From Melioribacteraceae bacterium (lineage in GTDB: Bacteria > Bacteroidota > Ignavibacteria > Ignavibacteriales > Melioribacteraceae): a stretch of DNA of 64,000 nucleotides. The position numbers and the translations under genes were made by a program. The DNA lies in the NCBI GenBank assembly GCA_027030245.1, contig JALVFE010000010.1:62001-126000 (forward strand), read 5' to 3'. Positions 10,879-39,950 of this stretch are shown here, piece after piece (position 1 is the first letter of the stretch; each line of letters begins with the position of its first letter). The notes beneath the pieces were generated by a model. That model worked only from the letters and a program-made list of their open reading frames with translations, was not told the DNA's origin and searched no databases.

Positions 10879-12012
10879 GTGAAAAAATTGATAATATCTA
10901 CAGTCGGTACAAGTATTTTAACAAATGTTATCGAAAATAATAATGAAAGGGCCGAATTGTATAATAATTCAAACTGTAGGTCTAAAGATGAATGTCCGGA
11001 ATCTGCGATTAAGCTTATAGACCAACTTAGAGAAAAAGCTTTGGAAAAATTATCACAAAATTTAGATTCTACAAGTTTAAGAAGATTAAGCGCTGAACTA
11101 AACGGAATTTACGGATTGTTTAACGGAACAAAAATAAACAATCAAGATTTTCATTATTTAATTACAACCGATACATACCAAGGTAAAATATGCGGTGAAA
11201 TTCTAAGAGAATTTTTTATCAAAAAAGGAATAAATGTTGATATTTATACTCCACGAGAATTAACAACTAAAACTAAATATAACTTTGAACAAGGCGTAAA
11301 AAATTTATTGAAATGGTGTGATGAAAATTTGACCGGTTACAAAAAATCTGGGTATGAAATAATATTTAATCTTACCGGAAGTTTTAAAAGTTTGCAAGGT
11401 TATATGAATACAATCGCAATGTTCTATGCTGATAAAATAATATATATTTTTGAGTCAGAAAAGGCAGAGTTAATCGAGATCCCGCGACTTCCAATAGAAA
11501 TAGATAACAAAATCATTGAAGAACATAAAGATAAGATTATACTAATGTCAGCCGGTTATAATTATACCAATAAAGATGATATAATTAATTTGCCTAAAAC
11601 TATAATTGATGAATTCGAAGGGACATTTTTTCTTTCTGTTTGGGGAAAACTTTTATGGGATAAAACAAAAGGTAAAATACTTGTTAAAGATTTAATTGAA
11701 CTTCCATTTTTAGAGTATACTGATAAATTCAGAAAACTTTTTAATGAAGCAACAGATACAGATAAAGTTATACTACAAGAAACATTGGCAAAAGTGTCTA
11801 AAATTTTAATGGAAAATGATTTTGATATTTCAAAATTAAAGCAAGACGGCGGCTTGAAATACGAAAATTATACTAATAAAAAAGATGAAAACAATAATTC
11901 TATCGGGCATTTTAGAATTTCTCAAAGTGATAGAATTAGTTGCGTTGCTAAAAATAGAAAACTTTATCTTCGTAAATTTGGTCGGCATGATTTTGTAAAT
12001 GATAATCCGTAA
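10879..12012 (+). CDS. CARF-domain protein (APE2256/TIGR02619 type) with RelE-like C terminus
   Basis: A CRISPR ancillary protein expected to sense cyclic oligoadenylate made by Cas10. The N-terminal CARF fold shows ISTVGTSIL (5-13), HYLITTDTYQGKICGE near 94-109 and the ligand-loop motif IFNLTGSFKSLQGYM near 162-176, which match the APE2256 family. A linker follows the helical middle. The last 80 residues (IGHFRISQSDRISCV, then LYLRKFGRHDFVNDNP) look like the arginine-rich core of a RelE-type mRNA interferase, so ligand binding may release RNase activity. The RelE reading is by eye and less sure than the CARF. TIGR02619-like relatives without it act as ring nucleases. Confidence 0.85.
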   Translation: MKKLIISTVGTSILTNVIENNNERAELYNNSNCRSKDECPESAIKLIDQLREKALEKLSQNLDSTSLRRLSAELNGIYGLFNGTKINNQDFHYLITTDTYQGKICGEILREFFIKKGINVDIYTPRELTTKTKYNFEQGVKNLLKWCDENLTGYKKSGYEIIFNLTGSFKSLQGYMNTIAMFYADKIIYIFESEKAELIEIPRLPIEIDNKIIEEHKDKIILMSAGYNYTNKDDIINLPKTIIDEFEGTFFLSVWGKLLWDKTKGKILVKDLIELPFLEYTDKFRKLFNEATDTDKVILQETLAKVSKILMENDFDISKLKQDGGLKYENYTNKKDENNNSIGHFRISQSDRISCVAKNRKLYLRKFGRHDFVNDNP

Positions 12013-12041
12013 AAAATATATTAAGATAAATTTTAAATAAA

Positions 12042-12063
12042 ATTCGCGAATTCGCGGCTACTA
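12042..12063 (+). repeat. GCCGC...GCGGC palindromic repeat, partial copy 7
   Basis: ATTCGCGAATTCGCGGCTAC, lying 8 nt before the next start codon, so it probably overlaps the 5' untranslated region of the Card1-like gene. Confidence 0.65.
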
Positions 12064-12070
12064 ATTTCCT

Positions 12071-12991
12071 ATGAAAATTTTAGTTAATCTTATTGGCGAA
12101 CAACCTATACCGAACCTTTTGCCTGCTTTATATTTGAAGCCGGAGAAAAATATTATTCTTTATACCGATAAAACATCTTCGGTTGCAAAAAGATTGCATA
12201 AAATTGGAATTATGTATGGAGAAAGAAAAACAATTTCCCAAAAAAGAAAAATAGAAGCCTACAATATTAATTCGGTAATAAATACTTTAGTTGAAATTTT
12301 TAATACGTATCAAAATGATGAAATAATCTTTAATATTACCGGTGGAACAAAACTTATGTCTATCGGTATGTTTAACTTTGCTGCTAAACATAAAGTGCCG
12401 GTAGTTTACTTAAAAAGCGAAAAGAATAAAAATATTCTTTATACAATAAACCCGACAGGTTCCACAAGATTGGAATCTTCCTATGTTGAATTGCCCGAAT
12501 TATTAACCGTCGATTTGTATCTCCGTGCTCATTTGTGGAAATACCGGATTAGTAAAGACGATTCAAATGTATATTCTTACGGACTCATGTACGAAAATGC
12601 GGTAATTAATGCACTAAGAAGAAACAACTTCGAAGTTATTCAGAATGTAAAACCTGCCGGAGAAGGCGAGCAAGTGGAAATTGATGCTGTTTTTAGACTT
12701 AAAGGTACAAACAATGTTGCAATTGCGGAAATTAAAGTGGGTGATTATAAAATGGAAAGACCTAAAAAGGGAATTGACCAACTATCAACCGCCGGCAGCA
12801 GGGAATATTTGGGCATTTACACGAAAAAATATTTAATAACAGCGCGTAAACTTTCGGAAAATATTAAAGCCGCCGCAAATGCACATAACGTTATCGTAAT
12901 AGATCAAATTAAATATAATAAATATAAAAATATTATATTTGAAGATTCTGAAAAATATTTAATTGATAAAATTATAAGGACCTTGAACTGA
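12071..12991 (+). CDS. Card1/Can2-like CARF nuclease (DUF1887)
   Basis: A cyclic-oligoadenylate-activated nuclease. The CARF half starts ILVNLIGEQPIPNLLPALYL and contains FNITGGTKLMSIGMF (about 93-107), both typical of the Card1/Can2 group. The C-terminal half is a PD-(D/E)xK nuclease: YGLMYENAVINAL, then GEQVEIDAVFRL (acidic pair near 203-205) and AIAEIKVGDYK (catalytic Glu and Lys near 217-219). Relatives nick or degrade DNA and single-stranded nucleic acid when the cell is infected. All active-site residues are present. Start ATG 12071 has no strong ribosome site. It is followed after 2 nt by a small gene, so the two are co-translated. Confidence 0.92.
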   Translation: MKILVNLIGEQPIPNLLPALYLKPEKNIILYTDKTSSVAKRLHKIGIMYGERKTISQKRKIEAYNINSVINTLVEIFNTYQNDEIIFNITGGTKLMSIGMFNFAAKHKVPVVYLKSEKNKNILYTINPTGSTRLESSYVELPELLTVDLYLRAHLWKYRISKDDSNVYSYGLMYENAVINALRRNNFEVIQNVKPAGEGEQVEIDAVFRLKGTNNVAIAEIKVGDYKMERPKKGIDQLSTAGSREYLGIYTKKYLITARKLSENIKAAANAHNVIVIDQIKYNKYKNIIFEDSEKYLIDKIIRTLN

Positions 12992-12993
12992 TA

Positions 12994-13362
12994 ATGCTTA
13001 TTAATTTATCGAATCATCCGCTTGAAAAATGGCAGAAAAATCAAACGGAAACCGCAAAGAAATTATACGGCACCTTGCGCGATCTTCCGTTTCCGCAAAT
13101 AAATCCGAACTGGGATGAAGATAAAGTCGAAGAATACGCTAAATTATATTTCGACGAAATTCTTGCAATTTTGGAAAGCTCGAGTGAACCCACTAACGCC
13201 GTGCATGTTATGGGCGAACTTACCTTTACGTTTAATTTAGTTAACAAATTGCTAAGGCAGAATATCGAATGTGTTGCTTCCACAACGGAAAGGCAGACAA
13301 TCGAAGATAATGATTCCAAATTGAGTGTGTTCAATTTCGTAAAATTCAGAAAGTATAAATGA
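12994..13362 (+). CDS. Small Rossmann-like CRISPR-associated protein, possible ring nuclease
   Basis: A 122-aa protein 2 nt behind the Card1-like nuclease. The pattern LINLSNHPLEKWQKNQ, DLPFPQINPNWDED, then AVHVMGELTFTFNLVNKLL, CVASTTERQT and VFNFVKFRKYK reads as a beta-alpha-beta fold with a glycine-turn and an STTER loop. I have the impression of seeing this pattern as a stand-alone small protein in type III loci, of the sort now called Csx15/Csx20 and linked to cyclic-oligoadenylate breakdown, but I cannot assign it firmly. Coupling to a CARF nuclease fits an off-switch role. A palindromic repeat begins at its stop codon. Confidence 0.82.
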   Translation: MLINLSNHPLEKWQKNQTETAKKLYGTLRDLPFPQINPNWDEDKVEEYAKLYFDEILAILESSSEPTNAVHVMGELTFTFNLVNKLLRQNIECVASTTERQTIEDNDSKLSVFNFVKFRKYK

Positions 13363-13387
13363 GCCGCAGATTCGCGAATTAGCGGCT
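13362..13387 (+). repeat. GCCGC...GCGGC palindromic repeat, copy 8
   Basis: AGCCGCAGATTCGCG then AATTAGCGGCT, a nearly perfect palindrome starting at the last base of the preceding stop codon. It could form a stem-loop in the mRNA between two accessory genes. Confidence 0.78.
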
Positions 13388-13402
13388 AAAATTTTTTTTA
13401 TT

Positions 13403-13795
13403 ATGAATGATATAATTTACAAAGATGAAAGTTACCAAATAATCGGTAAGTGTTTTGAAGTGCATAATAATTTGGGACCCGGATTTTTGGAAATTGTTTA
13501 TAAAGATGCACTTGAGTATGAATTCAAAAAGGCAAATATTCCTTTTGAAAGAGAAAAAGAATATATAGTTAATTATAAAAATGCTATTCTTCCGCATAAA
13601 TTTTACGCCGACTTTGTTGTATTCGATAAAATTATTTTGGAAGTAAAAGCCGTTGCCGGCATTTCGGATGAATTCGTTGCACAAGCGCTTAATTATTGTA
13701 AAGTATCGGGAAACAAATTGGCTCTAATCGTAAATTTCGGTGAACTAAAACTTAATTTTAAAAGGATTGTTTTAGAGAAAGGAAGAATGATATAA
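13403..13795 (+). CDS. GxxExxY family protein (PD-(D/E)xK-like)
   Basis: A 130-aa protein with the eponymous motif LGPGFLEIVYKDAL near residues 26-39, then LPHKFYADFVVFDKIILEVKAV (D near 75, ExK near 83-85) and QALNYCKVSG, the standard layout of this PD-(D/E)xK-like family. Function is unknown; it is common in Bacteroidota and Chlorobiota genomes and often sits between other genes without a fixed partner. Here it is flanked on both sides by copies of the palindromic repeat, which hints that it arrived with them. Confidence 0.92.
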   Translation: MNDIIYKDESYQIIGKCFEVHNNLGPGFLEIVYKDALEYEFKKANIPFEREKEYIVNYKNAILPHKFYADFVVFDKIILEVKAVAGISDEFVAQALNYCKVSGNKLALIVNFGELKLNFKRIVLEKGRMI

Positions 13796-13809
13796 TAAAA
13801 AAATAATAA

Positions 13810-13862
13810 AAGCCGCGAATTCGCGGCTTAAATTTTTTGCCACTAATGCACGAATTAGCAAC
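13810..13862 (+). repeat. GCCGC...GCGGC palindromic repeat, copies 9 and 10; terminator-like
   Basis: AAGCCGCGAATTCGCGGCTT (13810-13829) is a perfect 20-bp palindrome followed by AAATTTTTT, so it could end transcription of the gene before it. A degraded second copy (GCCACTAATGCACGAATTAG) follows up to the ribosome site of the next gene. Confidence 0.72.
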
Positions 13863-13878
13863 TAAAAAGGAATTAACA

Positions 13879-14973
13879 ATGAAAAATATTTTACTTGCAA
13901 TATCGGGATTAACTCCGCAAATAGTTACGGAAATGTTATACGCACTTTCCATTCAAAAGGGAATTAAAATCGATGAAATCTATATTATTACAACAAAGCG
14001 CGGTTTGGAAGTTCTGCAAGGAAAAGATAAAGATGAAAAAACTCCCGTAACGCCTTTAAGAAAAGAAATTAATGAACTGTGCACAACTTACGGTATTAAA
14101 AAGCCGAAATTCAATATTAAAAAGAATGTAATTGTTGCGGAAATGGAATCGCTTAAATTATACGATATAAAAACAGATAAGGAAAACAAACTGTTCCCCA
14201 ACAAACTTGCGGAAGTATTAAAAACTCTTACTGCCGACGAAAATAATATTATCCACGCTTCTCTTTCCGGCGGAAGAAAATCAATGTCGGCGCATCTTGC
14301 GCTTGTAATGTCTTTATTTGCCCGCTCTCAAGATAAACTATATCATGTTTTAACAGATGAAAAATATGAATTTAAAAATTTTTATCCTAAAGATAATGAG
14401 GAAGAACGTGCGCTTGTTGTAGCCGAAATTCCATTCGTCCGGTTGAGATGTATTAACGATCCCTTGCTTAAGGAAGATATTTCATATTCGGATTTGGTTG
14501 AAAAAACGCAGAAAAAACTTCGCTACCTTACCGAAAATGCTAAACTTGTTGTTGAGCTAAAGAAACAACTTGTACGTTACAAAGATAAAGCCGTTAAATT
14601 AACTCCAATGGAAATCGGTTTGTACACAACATTTGTACAAGAAAAAATAAATACCGGTGGAGGAATTGAAAAATACAAGCTGATATATTCAAAAAAATTC
14701 GCAAAAGAATTAGAACAATTTCTATCCGAAAATTTCAATATGGTTTTTGATAAAACCGGTAATAAATCGGAGAGTAACAAACATTGGACGGAAGAGGGAA
14801 TTGAAGAGAAATATTTCCTTTCGCTTAAATCGAAAATTAACGGGAAAATTAAAAATCTTTTTGACGATATGGAGTTAGCTGAAGAGTTTATGATATCCAC
14901 AAAAGGAGGATACGGTTACGCGGATTATTATATTAAAGCTCCTAAAAATAAACTTGGTATTAATTATGAATAA
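13879..14973 (+). CDS. CARF protein of the NE0113/TIGR02584 family (Csm6-type ring nuclease)
   Basis: A type III ancillary protein. The CARF domain is clear: ILLAISGLTPQIVTEMLYAL at 4-23 and the ligand loop HASLSGGRKSMSAHLALVM near 124-142, plus IPFVRLRCINDPLL after it; this set defines the NE0113 family. Databases call it a Csm6-like ring nuclease, which would degrade cyclic oligoadenylate. I cannot find the R-x4-H HEPN motif of true Csm6 RNases in the C-terminal half, which supports a signal-eraser role. The start is ATG 13879, 8 nt after AAAAGG; an earlier in-frame ATG at 13837 falls inside a repeat. A half repeat follows the gene. Confidence 0.9.
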   Translation: MKNILLAISGLTPQIVTEMLYALSIQKGIKIDEIYIITTKRGLEVLQGKDKDEKTPVTPLRKEINELCTTYGIKKPKFNIKKNVIVAEMESLKLYDIKTDKENKLFPNKLAEVLKTLTADENNIIHASLSGGRKSMSAHLALVMSLFARSQDKLYHVLTDEKYEFKNFYPKDNEEERALVVAEIPFVRLRCINDPLLKEDISYSDLVEKTQKKLRYLTENAKLVVELKKQLVRYKDKAVKLTPMEIGLYTTFVQEKINTGGGIEKYKLIYSKKFAKELEQFLSENFNMVFDKTGNKSESNKHWTEEGIEEKYFLSLKSKINGKIKNLFDDMELAEEFMISTKGGYGYADYYIKAPKNKLGINYE

Positions 14974-17465: not shown

Positions 17466-19747
17466 GTACTAATCGGACTATATTAGAATTGAGACCTCCT
17501 AATTTGTTATTGAAAAATAAAATTCAATTAGTACTAATCGGACTATATTAGAATTGAGACGATAAGTGGATTGCTAGCTTAAACTTATCAATGATGTACT
17601 AATCGGACTATATTAGAATTGAGACCAAAAATAGTTGTTCGAGTGATGTTTGCCGATCATTGTACTAATCGGACTATATTAGAATTGAGACTTTAATTCC
17701 TTGATTTTTTCCTGGATAGCCAAATACTCGTACTAATCGGACTATATTAGAATTGAGACTATCGAAAGTGCTTTTGGGCATATCAGCAGGAACAAGTACT
17801 AATCGGACTATATTAGAATTGAGACACTTTTAAATACCGTTTAAAAAAACGGTATAAAAAAGTACTAATCGGACTATATTAGAATTGAGACCTCTTTTTA
17901 CTTTTTTCATTTTATCACCCTTTAATTTGTACTAATCGGACTATATTAGAATTGAGACTTTATTAAGTTCATTTTCTATATGTTTTGCTAATTTGTACTA
18001 ATCGGACTATATTAGAATTGAGACACATTACGTTCCAAGATGGCGACCAAAGCAAAACTTGTACTAATCGGACTATATTAGAATTGAGACATAAAAAAAG
18101 GCACCTATCAAGATGCCTTGTCTTTTAAGTACTAATCGGACTATATTAGAATTGAGACTTTCAGTCCTGCTTGCAAAATATAAAAACCTGCTTGTACTAA
18201 TCGGACTATATTAGAATTGAGACTCCAAACGTTTTTCATGCTTTTGTGCTTCTTCTACGGGTACTAATCGGACTATATTAGAATTGAGACTTCAAAGAAC
18301 TTGCAGACGTCTCAACAACGCCTGCAAGTACTAATCGGACTATATTAGAATTGAGACTTTATTAAGTTCATTTTCTATATGTTTTGCTAATTTGTACTAA
18401 TCGGACTATATTAGAATTGAGACCTCCATTACTTGATCGGCTGGGCGTCCTGTTATTTGGTACTAATCGGACTATATTAGAATTGAGACTAATAACAGAT
18501 AAAAATACGTCTAACAATGTTGCATCAGTACTAATCGGACTATATTAGAATTGAGACACCTTTCTCTTTTGCGAAAATTGACTGTTTTTCAATATGGTAC
18601 TAATCGGACTATATTAGAATTGAGACGCCAATTGGCATCAGAATCCAATTTTACAGATATCCAGTACTAATCGGACTATATTAGAATTGAGACAACGGAT
18701 ACTATCACTAAGGAAAGCTGAAAAACCAGTGTACTAATCGGACTATATTAGAATTGAGACTAAGTTGAAGGTATTTCTTTGAGTATGTCGTTTATGTACT
18801 AATCGGACTATATTAGAATTGAGACAAGCCTGAGACCGCTTGTATAAAATCTTTTTTCGGTACTAATCGGACTATATTAGAATTGAGACTTTTGTTAATG
18901 AGTGATAAGCGGGTAATTATTCAACGTACTAATCGGACTATATTAGAATTGAGACTCAAATCCATTAAACCTTATCATATATCCTTCTAAGTACTAATCG
19001 GACTATATTAGAATTGAGACTAGAATTAAATACCAAAGGAGATGCTACAATATCAAGTACTAATCGGACTATATTAGAATTGAGACCATCTTACTTGGTT
19101 CATTTTTTAACTCCTTTTTTATTATTGGTACTAATCGGACTATATTAGAATTGAGACCTCCCAAGCTTTCAGAATGTTTTCCCATTGATCTTGTACTAAT
19201 CGGACTATATTAGAATTGAGACTAAGGTTAATAATAAAACTATCATCAACCTTATTTAGTACTAATCGGACTATATTAGAATTGAGACCCTTCAGATACC
19301 ATTTTCACTGAAACAAGCCATTTGTACTAATCGGACTATATTAGAATTGAGACTATGTTAAACTTAAAATTGTTCTGTTTCCAAAAAACAGTACTAATCG
19401 GACTATATTAGAATTGAGACTTCTTTTAATAATCATCTACCGAAATATAAGCAATTTGTACTAATCGGACTATATTAGAATTGAGACTTAGTAATTTTTC
19501 CATTCAATTCATTCCAAAACGTACTAATCGGACTATATTAGAATTGAGACTCCCTCAGTTTGTCCTTATATTCTATCGAAGTCATAAAAGTACTAATCGG
19601 ACTATATTAGAATTGAGACTGTTAAATAATTTTTTATTTTTTTCACCAGCGCATCTGGTACTAATCGGACTATATTAGAATTGAGACTTAATCGCAATCT
19701 CAAGTGCTTTTAATCGGACTAGTACTAATCGGACTATATTAGAATTG
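17466..19747 (+). CRISPR. CRISPR array, 34 intact repeats plus one decayed, 34 spacers
   Basis: The 30-bp repeat begins GTACTAATCG, continues GACTATATTA and ends GAATTGAGAC; the last 8 nt (ATTGAGAC) would be the crRNA 5' handle, close to the common ATTGAAAC. All 34 copies from 17466 to 19687 look identical. The 35th (19722-19747) keeps 26 bp and then changes to TCCC. Spacers are 33-41 bp. Spacers 8 (17959-17994) and 14 (18358-18393) are identical. Spacer 34 contains TTAATCGGACTA, a piece of the repeat. Reverse complements of most spacers read as coding or as gene-edge sequence, so crRNAs from the plus strand would be antisense to target mRNA. The leader lies on the left, next to cas2. Confidence 0.99.
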
Positions 19748-20616
19748 TCCCGATACGACTCGATAAATAGAACGAATCGGGATCCCGACATAGTACTACA
19801 TATCGCCTTGACGTCGGGAAGACGGGTTGATGCCCGTTTGATTTATTATGTGAAATTGTTCTTTGCTAATCGGACTATGCCAAAGACATCCCTTCGGTTA
19901 TTAGAATTGTCGAGCCGGAAGGCTATTTAGGATTCTGCGAGATCCCGACAGAACATTACTTATCGCCTCGACGTCGGGAAAACGGGTTGATGCCCGTTTT
20001 GATTTATTATGTGAAATTGTTCTTTGCTAATCGGACTATGCCAAAGACATCCCTTCGGTTATTAGAATTGTCGAGCCGGAAGGCTATTTAGGATTCTGCG
20101 AGATCCCGACATAGTACTTCTTATCGCCTCGACGTCGGGAAAACGGGTTGGTGCCCGTTTGTTTTGCAATGCGAAGATGTTCGGGACTAATCGGTCTATG
20201 CCGCAGGCAGAATTGTCGAGCCGGAAGGCTATTTAGGATTTGGCGAGATCCCGACATAGTACTACTTATCGCCTTGACGTCGGGAAGACGGGTTGGTGCT
20301 TGTTTGATTTATTATGTGAAATTGTTCATTGCTAATCGGACTATGCCGAAGTCAGAATTGCCGAGCCGGAAGGCTATTTAGGATTCTGCGAGATCCCGAC
20401 ATAGTACTTCTTATCGCCTTGACGTCGGGAAGACGGGTTGGTGCCCGATTGATTTATTATATGAAATTGTTCATTACTAATCGGACTATGCTACAGGCAT
20501 CCCTTTGGTTATTAGAATTGTCGAGCCGGAAGGCTATTTAGGATTTGGCGAGATCCCGACATAGCACTACTTATCGCCTTGACGTCGGGAAAACAGGTTG
20601 GTGCCAGTTTAAAAGT
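19748..20616 (+). repeat. Tandem 145-161-bp units containing CRISPR-repeat fragments split by hairpins
   Basis: Units start at 19781, 19941, 20102, 20247, 20392 and 20552 (the last partial), counting from GATCCCGACA. Each contains, in order, GTACT, then CTAATCGGACTAT, then ATTAGAATTG: the first 26 bp of the CRISPR repeat in pieces. The pieces are separated by inserts that can fold: TCCCGAC...GTCGGGA and ACGGG...CCCG in the first, CCGAAG-like...CTTCGG in the second, AGCC-GGAA-GGCT in the third. Units 3 and 4 lack about 15 bp of the second insert. The lead-in 19748-19780 has its own arms TCCCGAT...ATCGGGA. Short frames across the units are not convincing genes. Confidence 0.9.
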
Positions 20617-20892
20617 AAGTCAAAGTGAAGCTCTCAATTGTAGGTCAACCTGCCAGGTTGACTGAGGACATAATTTGTAAATTAACCAATCAGGCTAACC
20701 AAAAGAAATGCAAAATATCTGATTGGAATTTACTAGTGGAATAATAACGAATTATTCATTATTCTGTTTCTTAAGCTGTTGTTAGTATCTTTGCTTCTCA
20801 ATTGGCAATTAAATTAACTATACTTAAGACATTCTTTTGGGTAATAGCAATCAAACACAACATCGACTAAGTTAATATTACGTTATAAATAC
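20617..20892 (+). other. Gap after the tandem units
   Basis: Holds a GGTCAACCTG-type palindrome at 20643-20663 (last base changed to T) and then AT-rich sequence leading to the next gene. No convincing coding frame. Confidence 0.6.
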
Positions 20893-21186
20893 TTGAAAAA
20901 GAAATATTTACCATTTGAAACGAAATTAGAATATGAATATCCCGGCTTACGCTTGCTCTTTGCCGTTGAAGGTGGCGCATACTTTTTTGCCAAGAAAAAA
21001 GACAAATTCTTTATCATTTCAGATTTTGGAACTTTGGCAGAATTTGTAGAAAAAGATGAGTTCGATAAGCTTAAAAAAGAATATGAGTTTACAAATAAAG
21101 ATGAATGTCGACGTTTTATTAATGAATTAATCAACAGTACGAAAAAAGAACAAATTAATATTAATCTTCCCATTGAAATTTTATAA
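20893..21186 (+). CDS. Unrecognised 97-aa protein
   Basis: Not recognised. It reads as a small alpha/beta protein (LRLLFAVEGGAYFFAKKKDK, then FFIISDFGTLAEFVEKDEFD) with a lysine-rich N terminus and a helical C-terminal half ending INLPIEIL. The only start in frame is TTG 20893, without a clear ribosome site. A same-strand PD-(D/E)xK-like gene follows after 23 nt with a good AAGGGG ribosome site, so the two form an operon. That layout recalls a two-gene defence or toxin-antitoxin unit, but there is no homology to support it. The opposite strand also has a frame of the same size; context favours this one. Confidence 0.65.
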   Translation: MKKKYLPFETKLEYEYPGLRLLFAVEGGAYFFAKKKDKFFIISDFGTLAEFVEKDEFDKLKKEYEFTNKDECRRFINELINSTKKEQININLPIEIL

Positions 21187-21209
21187 TCACATTACATAAG
21201 GGGAAATAA

Positions 21210-21824: not shown

Positions 21825-22219
21825 ATACGGATATCAAGCTTTTTCACTTGCCTACTTTTTGAGTAGAGTTTTAACAATTAAGATTGCGATGGAGAGTGGG
21901 ATGGCGCTCACGAATTTGTAGGTCAACCTGCCAAGTTGACTAAAAGAATAGGTTAAATACTTGATTAATAATTTCTAAAGAAAAATAATTCAATATTTTC
22001 TAGCCCTTTTCCTTTTACCTTAACCTTAGCCTTAACCTTAGCCTTAACCTTAGCTTTATCCTTAGCCTTCTTTTCAATGCATCTAAACTGTTCAATTTAA
22101 GCTCTCCGTATTTTTTGTTTCAGATAATAATCCTAAATTATAAAGATTAATAGGACTTGAATATTTTTGAAAATAGACGTATATTATTAATATAATTATA
22201 CGTCAAGCGGAGGTCAAAA
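21825..22219 (+). other. 395-bp gap with a palindrome and a tandem CCTTAACCTTAG tract
   Basis: Contains GGTCAACCTG-C-CAAGTTGACT-like palindrome at 21921-21941 and a degenerate 12-bp tandem (CCTTAACCTTAG, about four turns) at about 22011-22067. An AT-rich stretch with GTATATTATTAATATAATTATACG at 22178-22203 (in two 10-bp arms, CGTATATTAT and ATAATTATACG) lies just ahead of the toxin-antitoxin pair and could be its operator. No gene seen. Confidence 0.55.
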
Positions 22220-39218: not shown

Positions 39219-39950
39219 GTGATATACCGTTTCAATCATATTAAATAGAAATAAATGGGACTGTCTTAAAATTTAAAAATCGTCATCCTATCCGCCAACG
39301 GTGTCTTGAGTAGAACTTGTCATCCCGTCCGCCGTCGGCGGATTGTTTCGGGATCTAAAACAAACATGTCATTCCGTCCGCCACGGCGGATTGTTTCGGG
39401 AGCTAAAATAAACATGTCATTCCGAACTTGTTTCGGAATCTAAAAAATAAACGCCACGAATTCACAAATGAAAAACCATAATCGGGATGCAAAATGTATG
39501 CTTCTCACGTCTTACGTCTCACGTTTTACGTTTGGAATTTGTTATTTGAAATTTGGAATTTCTTGCCTGTCACCTAAAAATTCATTTTATTTTAAATTTG
39601 AAGGGGAATTATGCCATGATTTTATATTGTAAGTTTTATGTAAAATTATTAAATTCATTTCTAGCAGAAATGAATGTGGTTGATTAAAACACAAAAATAA
39701 TTGAAACATAAACGGGATAAAAAGTTAAGCGATTAGAAAGCAGAATAATTTGTGCAAACAGCACAACAAAATCGACTTAGTAATTTAAAAAGTAAATAGC
39801 TCATGCCAACGGAAAACAAAACAGAACGGTTTTTAGGGAGAAAGTAATGCTTGCTGATAAACAAATGGGATGTTGTTTCCTGCGGGTTAATAAATGGTTA
39901 TATTACCAAACAAAAAGATTCGCATTAAAAGTTAAAATGATGGGGTTACT
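39219..39950 (+). repeat. 732-bp gap with nested palindromic elements
   Basis: At 39283-39447 there are three or four copies of a GTCAT(C/T)CCG...CGG(G/A)ATCTAAAA element. In two, an inner stem (CCGCC-GTC-GGCGG, then CCGCC-AC-GGCGG) is nested in the outer ATCCCG/CGGGAT stem; in the third the inner stem is gone. A half GCCGC repeat-like word lies at 39449. A low-complexity run of TCACGTCTTACG words is at 39508-39535. From 39560 on the sequence is AT-rich with no gene. A GTTAAGC word at 39724 might be a cassette edge (see the attC-like site). Confidence 0.6.

Follow-up and report, generated by a model that had tools for sequence, protein, structure and literature searches.

Tandem units behind a type III-A CRISPR array as the probable outcome of palindrome insertion into a repeat loop

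The trailer of the type III-A CRISPR array described here is probably a decayed CRISPR repeat whose loop was invaded by a mini-palindrome and which was subsequently amplified in tandem. The inserted sequence is a dispersed element, and in a related genome the same insertion site is taken by other palindromes within array repeats. Moreover, partial tRNA gene copies hold the 22-bp element (22-mer) in their T-loops and a 19-bp form (19-mer) in their D-loops.

The array trailers and their interrupted repeat

The window, that is, the whole stretch of 64,000 nucleotides that was analysed, corresponds to C10:62001-126000 of the 3.8-Mb genome G000, and positions without a prefix are window positions. 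It contains a type III-A locus with Cas10, Csm2-5, Cas1 and Cas2, and three CARF effector genes (CARF-RelE, CARF-PDDEXK and CARF) lie beside the type III-A genes at 10879-14973. The features at the end of the array are as follows.

17466..19687, + strand: CRISPR array B of the type III-A locus, 34 intact repeats GTACTAATCGGACTATATTAGAATTGAGAC by regular expression (regex)
19710..19721, + strand: repeat fragment TTAATCGGACTA, abutting the 5' side of the array B terminal repeat
19722..19747, + strand: terminal repeat of array B, first 26 bp only, GAGAC lost, insert-free
19748..19782, no strand: 35-bp palindrome TCCCGAT...ATCGGGA, in the place of hairpin A of the later units
19783..19819, no strand: hairpin B, TCCCGAC...GTCGGGA, the first of six within the window
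19866..20026, + strand: unit B1, its repeat halves at 19866-19877 and at 19899-19909
19878-19898: insert of unit B1, a decayed 22-mer of 21 bp that separates the repeat halves
19910..19942, no strand: hairpin A of unit B1 (AGCC/GGCT), between the repeat and hairpin B, outside the repeat
20027..20186, + strand: unit B2, insert 20039-20059
20187..20331, + strand: unit B3, lacking by deletion the second half of the insert as well as some of the 3' half of the repeat
20332..20476, + strand: unit B4, deletion of the same kind as in B3
20477..20616, + strand: unit B5, insert 20489-20509; ends early, past hairpin B and the terminator-like hairpin

The tandem units that an earlier, sequence-only reading had noticed at 19748-20616 are real, with unit starts at 19866, 20027, 20187, 20332 and 20477; Tandem Repeats Finder reports a 145-bp unit in 5.4 copies over 19781-20610. 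The lengths of B1 to B5 are 161, 160, 145, 145 and 134 bp (B5 measured to 20610), and the inserts do vary in step, as had been stated, B3 and B4 having a shortened insert in common. Elsewhere in the window we observed a short ACCTTA tandem repeat (22017-22069) and, at 39314-39424, TCCGCC..GGCGGA palindromes nested within a larger palindromic repeat, TGTCATTCCG...CGGAATCT.

G000 has a second CRISPR array, array A, which consists of the same repeat as array B and lies outside the window, at C10:54342-59093, with a leader that resembles that of array B as judged by eye. A sequence search with one unit as query located its trailer at C10:59124-59705, where four units follow one another, A1-A3 in full and A4 as the repeat part only, A3 being shortened as well. 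The terminal repeat of array A shows the same 26-bp truncation as in array B, and the counterpart of the 35-bp palindrome differs by one base. Units are about as similar between the arrays (87.5-93.8% identity) as within A (91.5-93.3%) or within B (84.1-91.8%), and duplication of the array or of its trailer may lie behind the two copies. Near the trailer of array A we also noted the variant repeats ATAATAGAATTGAAAC and ATATTAGAATTGAAAC (L009 12730-13060, i.e., C10:58730-59060), which differ from the repeats at the leader end of array A and from those of array B.

Within the units the repeat is split at a single point, GTACTAATCGGACTA^TATTAGAATTG, as read from unit A1, in which GTACTAATCGGACTA, the insert and TATTAGAATTG succeed one another. 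Folded alone, the intact repeat forms a CTAAT/ATTAG stem with an 8-nt loop, and the insertion point lies inside this loop. The word CTAATCGGACTAT has 115 copies in the 3.8-Mb genome, all on the same strand (0 on the other), and 0 in the reversed control; array A with its trailer (L009) holds 76 of them and array B with its trailer (the window) the other 39, so that no copy lies outside the two arrays and their trailers and the word is not due to chance. Since GTA stands immediately 5' of CTAATCGGACTA in unit A1, the repeat was interrupted once, and the earlier description of three ordered repeat pieces separated by two inserts is wrong. The TCCCGAC/GTCGGGA and AGCC/GGCT hairpins, which had been placed inside the repeat, both lie between repeat copies. 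As for GTACT, which had been taken for a displaced repeat piece, it is a chance match inside the TCCCGAC hairpin that reads GCACT in A1 and B5 and ACATT in B1; this variation among units, together with the anatomy of A1, rules it out.

The alignment of eight units bears on two functional alternatives. That the units yield a structured RNA with a function of its own, transcribed by read-through from the array, be it a Cas6 sponge, a regulator or a crRNA-like decoy, we consider improbable. They do lie on the same strand as the array, trailers of similar layout are present in two species, and the hairpins A, B and T are paired in 32/32, 51/52 and 53/56 cells of the aligned units. However, the fold of the 148-nt unit has a z-score of -0.39 and is equalled or exceeded in stability by 68 of 200 shuffles; none of the pairs in the eight units has both partners replaced to give a different standard pair; the stems of the insert break (21/23 and, for stem 2, 11/16 cells paired); three of the eight units are without part of the ATTAG side; and, for this repeat sequence, only two of the 164 genomes of the order, G000 and G008, were found to have split repeats at an array. 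Rfam yielded 0 matches at the gathering threshold in the window and 0 at E-values up to 5 over 19650-20700. The earlier suggestion of a structured RNA or Cas6 decoy thus appears to gain no support from folding, Rfam or pair counts. Folding and pair counts likewise lend none to a functional small RNA derived from CRISPR, of the CreR or anti-CRISPR RNA kind, which would be expressed and bound by Cas proteins.

A block that stops transcription, in which the ACGGG/CCCGT hairpin with its T-rich tail would end transcription of the array, is a less remote prospect, if still a doubtful one, and would be compatible with insertion followed by amplification. Over 19650-21200, both strands included, 5 terminator-like sites are present against 1.3 expected, three of them in the trailer on the + strand (19820, 19979 and 20434), and the terminator-like stem recurs in 8/8 aligned units (53/56 cells paired); given this recurrence and the three + strand sites, a stop function is possible. 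The tails, GATTTATTAT and ATTGATTTAT, are weak, however, the scan records a consensus match only, and transcription stop explains neither the repeat halves nor the insert.

Under the preferred reading of loop invasion followed by amplification, a 22-bp double hairpin would have entered the loop of the CTAAT/ATTAG stem (GGACTA^TATTAG) at the old end of the array, through a clean insertion with no visible target duplication. The interrupted repeat, along with hairpins A and B and the terminator-like hairpin, would then have multiplied in tandem to give the trailer that both G000 arrays share, and the units are now drifting, with differing loops and breaking insert stems. Such elements would be miniature mobile palindromes that work in the manner of cyanobacterial small dispersed repeats and enter RNA hairpin loops. 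The element could have moved either as DNA or via RNA and probably has no role for the cell, its upkeep being selfish or neutral. A plasmid- or phage-borne trailer was also considered and rejected, with no match among the plasmids and phages searched.

The insert as a dispersed element and its counterparts in a related genome

The sequence-only reading had proposed that palindromic elements inserted into a terminal CRISPR repeat and that the product was then amplified. This proposal is supported by the identity of the insert, a 22-bp element that is dispersed and has copies beyond CRISPR, by other palindromes at exactly this position of the array repeats in a genome of the same genus, and by similar tandems after some tRNA genes. 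The insert is a double hairpin of the form TGCC-NNN-GGCA-TCCC-NNN-GGGA, the stems of which are fixed by the search pattern while the NNN loops differ among copies. With up to three mismatches, GCMKVAGGCATCCCTTYGGGAT has 6 matches outside CRISPR in G000 and 3 in G008; the exact pattern TGCCNNNGGCATCCCNNNGGGA is present in 48 of the 164 genomes of the order and, in a phylum sample of 395 genomes, in 42, with 0 for the reversed control in either set. The earlier reading had named as refuting itself the discovery of the unit far from CRISPR arrays with no repeat-like pieces, or chance as the source of the shared words; the insert does occur far from CRISPR, but the 13-bp repeat-like word is not a chance match. 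The analysis of the 22-mer covers 177 raw sites, 176 with flanks, 144 distinct sites and 82 clusters, sites with a flank shorter than 20 bp and near-duplicates having been left out; the loci were hand-picked, not random, among the matches listed (79 of a first 80 regions from the order, and 20 later ones from the order and the phylum).

The 22-mer is embedded in other repeats, namely CRISPR repeats and tRNA copies, and in 11 of 59 clusters an empty target copy lies within the same fetched locus. The CRISPR and T-arm sites, GGACTA^TATTAG and GGTTC^GAATCC, to which this statement is confined, are clean insertions without target site duplication. For hairpins A and B of the units, no dispersed copies were found, and one TCCCGAC..GTCGGGA located elsewhere has a different interior; the 22-mer therefore does not account for these two hairpins.

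G000 has many palindromes with GC-rich stems (71 occurrences of TCCGCCN2-6GGCGGA versus 2 in the control), and one could imagine an old trailer with hairpins of any source, the short GC-rich stems of which are alike by chance. We regard this as very improbable: the pattern specifies 16 bases and its reversed control is 0 over the 164 and the 395 genomes, and the junction GACTA^T is the same in the units, which were located by that junction, and in the array repeats of G008.

G008, a genome of the same genus, has the same CRISPR repeat on four contigs, and 7 of its 86 repeats fitting the regex carry an insert at GACTA^TATTAG, the same base as in the G000 units (3/51, 3/9, 1/19 and 0/7 by contig), compared with 0 of 104 in the two arrays of G000, repeats outside the regex being left out of both counts. 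Six of these inserts are of a 19-bp form, five of which match TCCGCCNNNGGCGGACAGG exactly while the sixth is altered in a stem, and the seventh is a longer run of such hairpins. Of the 14 spacers beside inserted repeats, 11 were measured, ten being 34-39 bp long and one a gap of 1359, and three were left out as the next repeat falls outside the regex; in two cases the same downstream spacer follows a pair of inserts, which leaves at most five independent contexts. Where the order could be judged, the inserts come late in the array (positions 42, 44 and 51 of 51, and 19 of 19), and in L063 none of the seven leader-adjacent repeats bears one. The inserts may persist mainly in leader-distal repeats and in redundant tRNA copies. 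One G008 array (L060, reverse strand) is broken by a 1.36-kb stretch between regex repeats 8 and 9.

By eye, the trailers of G008 have the layout of those in G000, i.e., repeat half, hairpin, TCCCGA hairpin, AGACGGGTTRGTGC and repeat half, with only 26 bp within the blastn limit when one unit is the query. Among the other genomes, a split-repeat match in G139 was rejected, there being no array; across the contigs of the wider genome set, the split-repeat pattern identified four stretches, two of which match contigs of G008 and two of which are single, array-less and taken as chance. The 19-mer TCCGCCNNNGGCGGACAGG is dispersed as well, in 25 of the 164 order genomes (control 0), with 67 raw sites, 35 distinct sites and 30 clusters.

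Sites in tRNA gene copies and the preference for loops

A rule for a T-arm split at TTC^GA (left side ..GGTTC-like, right side GA..) is fitted by 24 of the 144 distinct 22-mer sites, or 15 clusters, which include at least one site, L154, that fits the rule although its right side is not a T-arm by eye. At 15 of these 24 sites an intact matching tRNA lies in the fetched locus, 27-425 bp away; at nine it is absent. Because GA is part of the rule, the left side was also checked alone: GGTTC or GGATTC precedes the element at 25 distinct sites, 24 of which continue with GA, versus 50 of the 119 other sites, a background frequency of GA that weakens the T-arm reading. In L187 (494-710) an intact tRNA-Gly gene is followed by two 67-bp units, each a copy of the tRNA 3' end whose T-loop holds the 22-mer, and in L096 (1379-1814) a tRNA-Ser gene by 121-bp units of the same make-up. 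These post-tRNA tandem units mirror the post-array units. We further observed an intact tRNA gene followed by tandem 3'-end units carrying the T-loop 22-mer in L215, and similar tandem units with no intact matching tRNA in the fetched stretch in L211 and L213.

The 19-mer resides, by eye, in the D-loops of partial tRNA copies in 3 of its 30 clusters, upstream of intact tRNA-Val, tRNA-Asp and tRNA-Arg genes. Such 5' partial copies, with the intact tRNA downstream, were seen at L246 1370-1753, L254 1480-1631 and L257 1485-1711.

It is conceivable, if not the outcome that we would expect, that insertion and tandem duplication constitute a single event, in which a duplicative process spares the original hairpin gene and marks the extra copies. 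The intact matching tRNAs at 15 of the 24 T-arm sites, the empty-to-filled site periods of 45-443 bp, and the D-loop insert borne by the upstream 5' half copies are all in line with such coupling. Against this, the sites were found via the insert, so that insert-free partial copies were never sampled; hits in essential single tRNAs would be lethal and hence unseen; and the array inserts of G008 sit among ordinary repeats. Given that the insert served to find every site, the element may either cause the tandem copies or survive in copies that are spare.

In statistical terms, a preference for loops has backing for the 22-mer only and is not general. The arms flanking the 22-mer have a mean complementarity of 4.15, versus 3.58 for shuffled partners (sd 0.12; 0 of 500 shuffles reach it), and strong flanking arms are found in 13 of 82 clusters, against 4.1 expected and at most 11.0 in shuffles; however, the number of strong arms stayed at 13 as the clusters rose from 59 to 82, which weakens the loop reading. 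Pairing probability, tested with the 59 clusters obtained first, gives a borderline result (6.44 versus 5.46, sd 0.37; largest of 60 shuffles 6.45). For the 19-mer the flanking arms show no excess (3.40 versus 3.47, 30 clusters), and its preference for loops is drawn solely from the CRISPR and D-loop cases.

As a tentative generalization, to which we give less than even credence, mobile palindromes of 19-22 bp that are widespread in Ignavibacteria and their relatives might target RNA hairpin loops (those of the CRISPR repeat and the T- and D-loops of tRNAs) and enter by a duplicative, gene-sparing process that does not damage the working gene but sets up a tandem series of marked copies 3' or 5' of it, the post-array units being the CRISPR form. 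With respect to a mobilizing enzyme, Y1 transposases are encoded in 146 of the 164 order genomes, with 5 matches in G000, but have 0 matches in G008 (98% complete, 190 contigs), and RAYT is accordingly a weak candidate. A GIY-YIG protein is weak in this role too, with an ORF at only 4 of 56 clustered loci by tblastn, a count that omits L092, which bears the ORF and was merged into another cluster. In L091 (1159-1398), L092 and L093 (1212-1457) small GIY-YIG ORFs stand between the intact tRNA and the inserted 3' copy, and a large part of the stretch, this ORF included, recurs beyond the inserted copy up to the end of the locus in both L091 and L093.

Relation to known elements and meaning

Several described elements invite comparison. 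The small dispersed repeats (SDRs) of Nostoc and its relatives, the subject of work by Elhai et al. in 2008, are reportedly ~20-27 bp long, hairpin-forming, dispersed and nested in other repeats, with variable loops and compensatory changes in the stems, and are not known to have a protein of their own. The 22-mer is similar in being within this size range, hairpin-forming, dispersed, multi-copy and nested in other repeats, whereas the 19-mer is shorter than an SDR size range of ~21-27 bp. SDRs are mentioned in PMC3116915. They belong to another phylum, whereas the inserts analysed here sit in CRISPR repeats and in tRNA copies with tandem units. The foot of REP sequences is GTAG or GTGG; in contrast, either tetranucleotide lies directly left of the 22-mer at 1 of 144 distinct sites. 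REP/REPIN elements are short palindromes with paired hairpins that are non-autonomous and are linked to RAYT transposases (PMC3116915). G008, which has no Y1 transposase match, may be unlike the genomes with REP and RAYT in this respect. IS1397, which according to a title cited in PMC3116915 inserts in palindromic units of Escherichia coli, has a palindromic target in common with the present case, but is a full insertion sequence, compared with 22 bp here.

Mobile DNA inside a CRISPR array has a precedent in a CRISPR locus of Sulfolobus islandicus, where a pING1-like insert separates two repeats (PMC3718332). That element, however, is large and stands between complete repeats, not within a repeat loop. 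Downstream of tyrT in E. coli, the tandem units of rtT repeat the 3' end of the tRNA, and the post-tRNA units described here are likewise tandem, downstream of a tRNA and built from its 3' end. To our knowledge, rtT has no palindromic T-loop insert and is not located beside CRISPR. The trailer shares its repeat sequence and stem, as well as decay of the leader-distal repeats, with an ordinary degenerate CRISPR trailer, and differs from it in the tandem units with an element insert, which are present in two arrays and, by layout, in a second species. Among the open-access matches listed, as judged from titles and the beginnings of abstracts, no publication dealt with palindromes in CRISPR repeats or with T-loop inserts in tandem tRNA copies.

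The present analysis ties an oddity of a CRISPR trailer to a genome-wide process, in which tiny elements occupy CRISPR repeats, some of them inside the array, and spare tRNA copies. The exact empty and filled sites in two types of RNA genes offer material for asking how elements of ~20 bp move, whether as folded DNA or as RNA. Furthermore, invasion by such elements extends to the CRISPR repeat itself, which nevertheless remains in the array.
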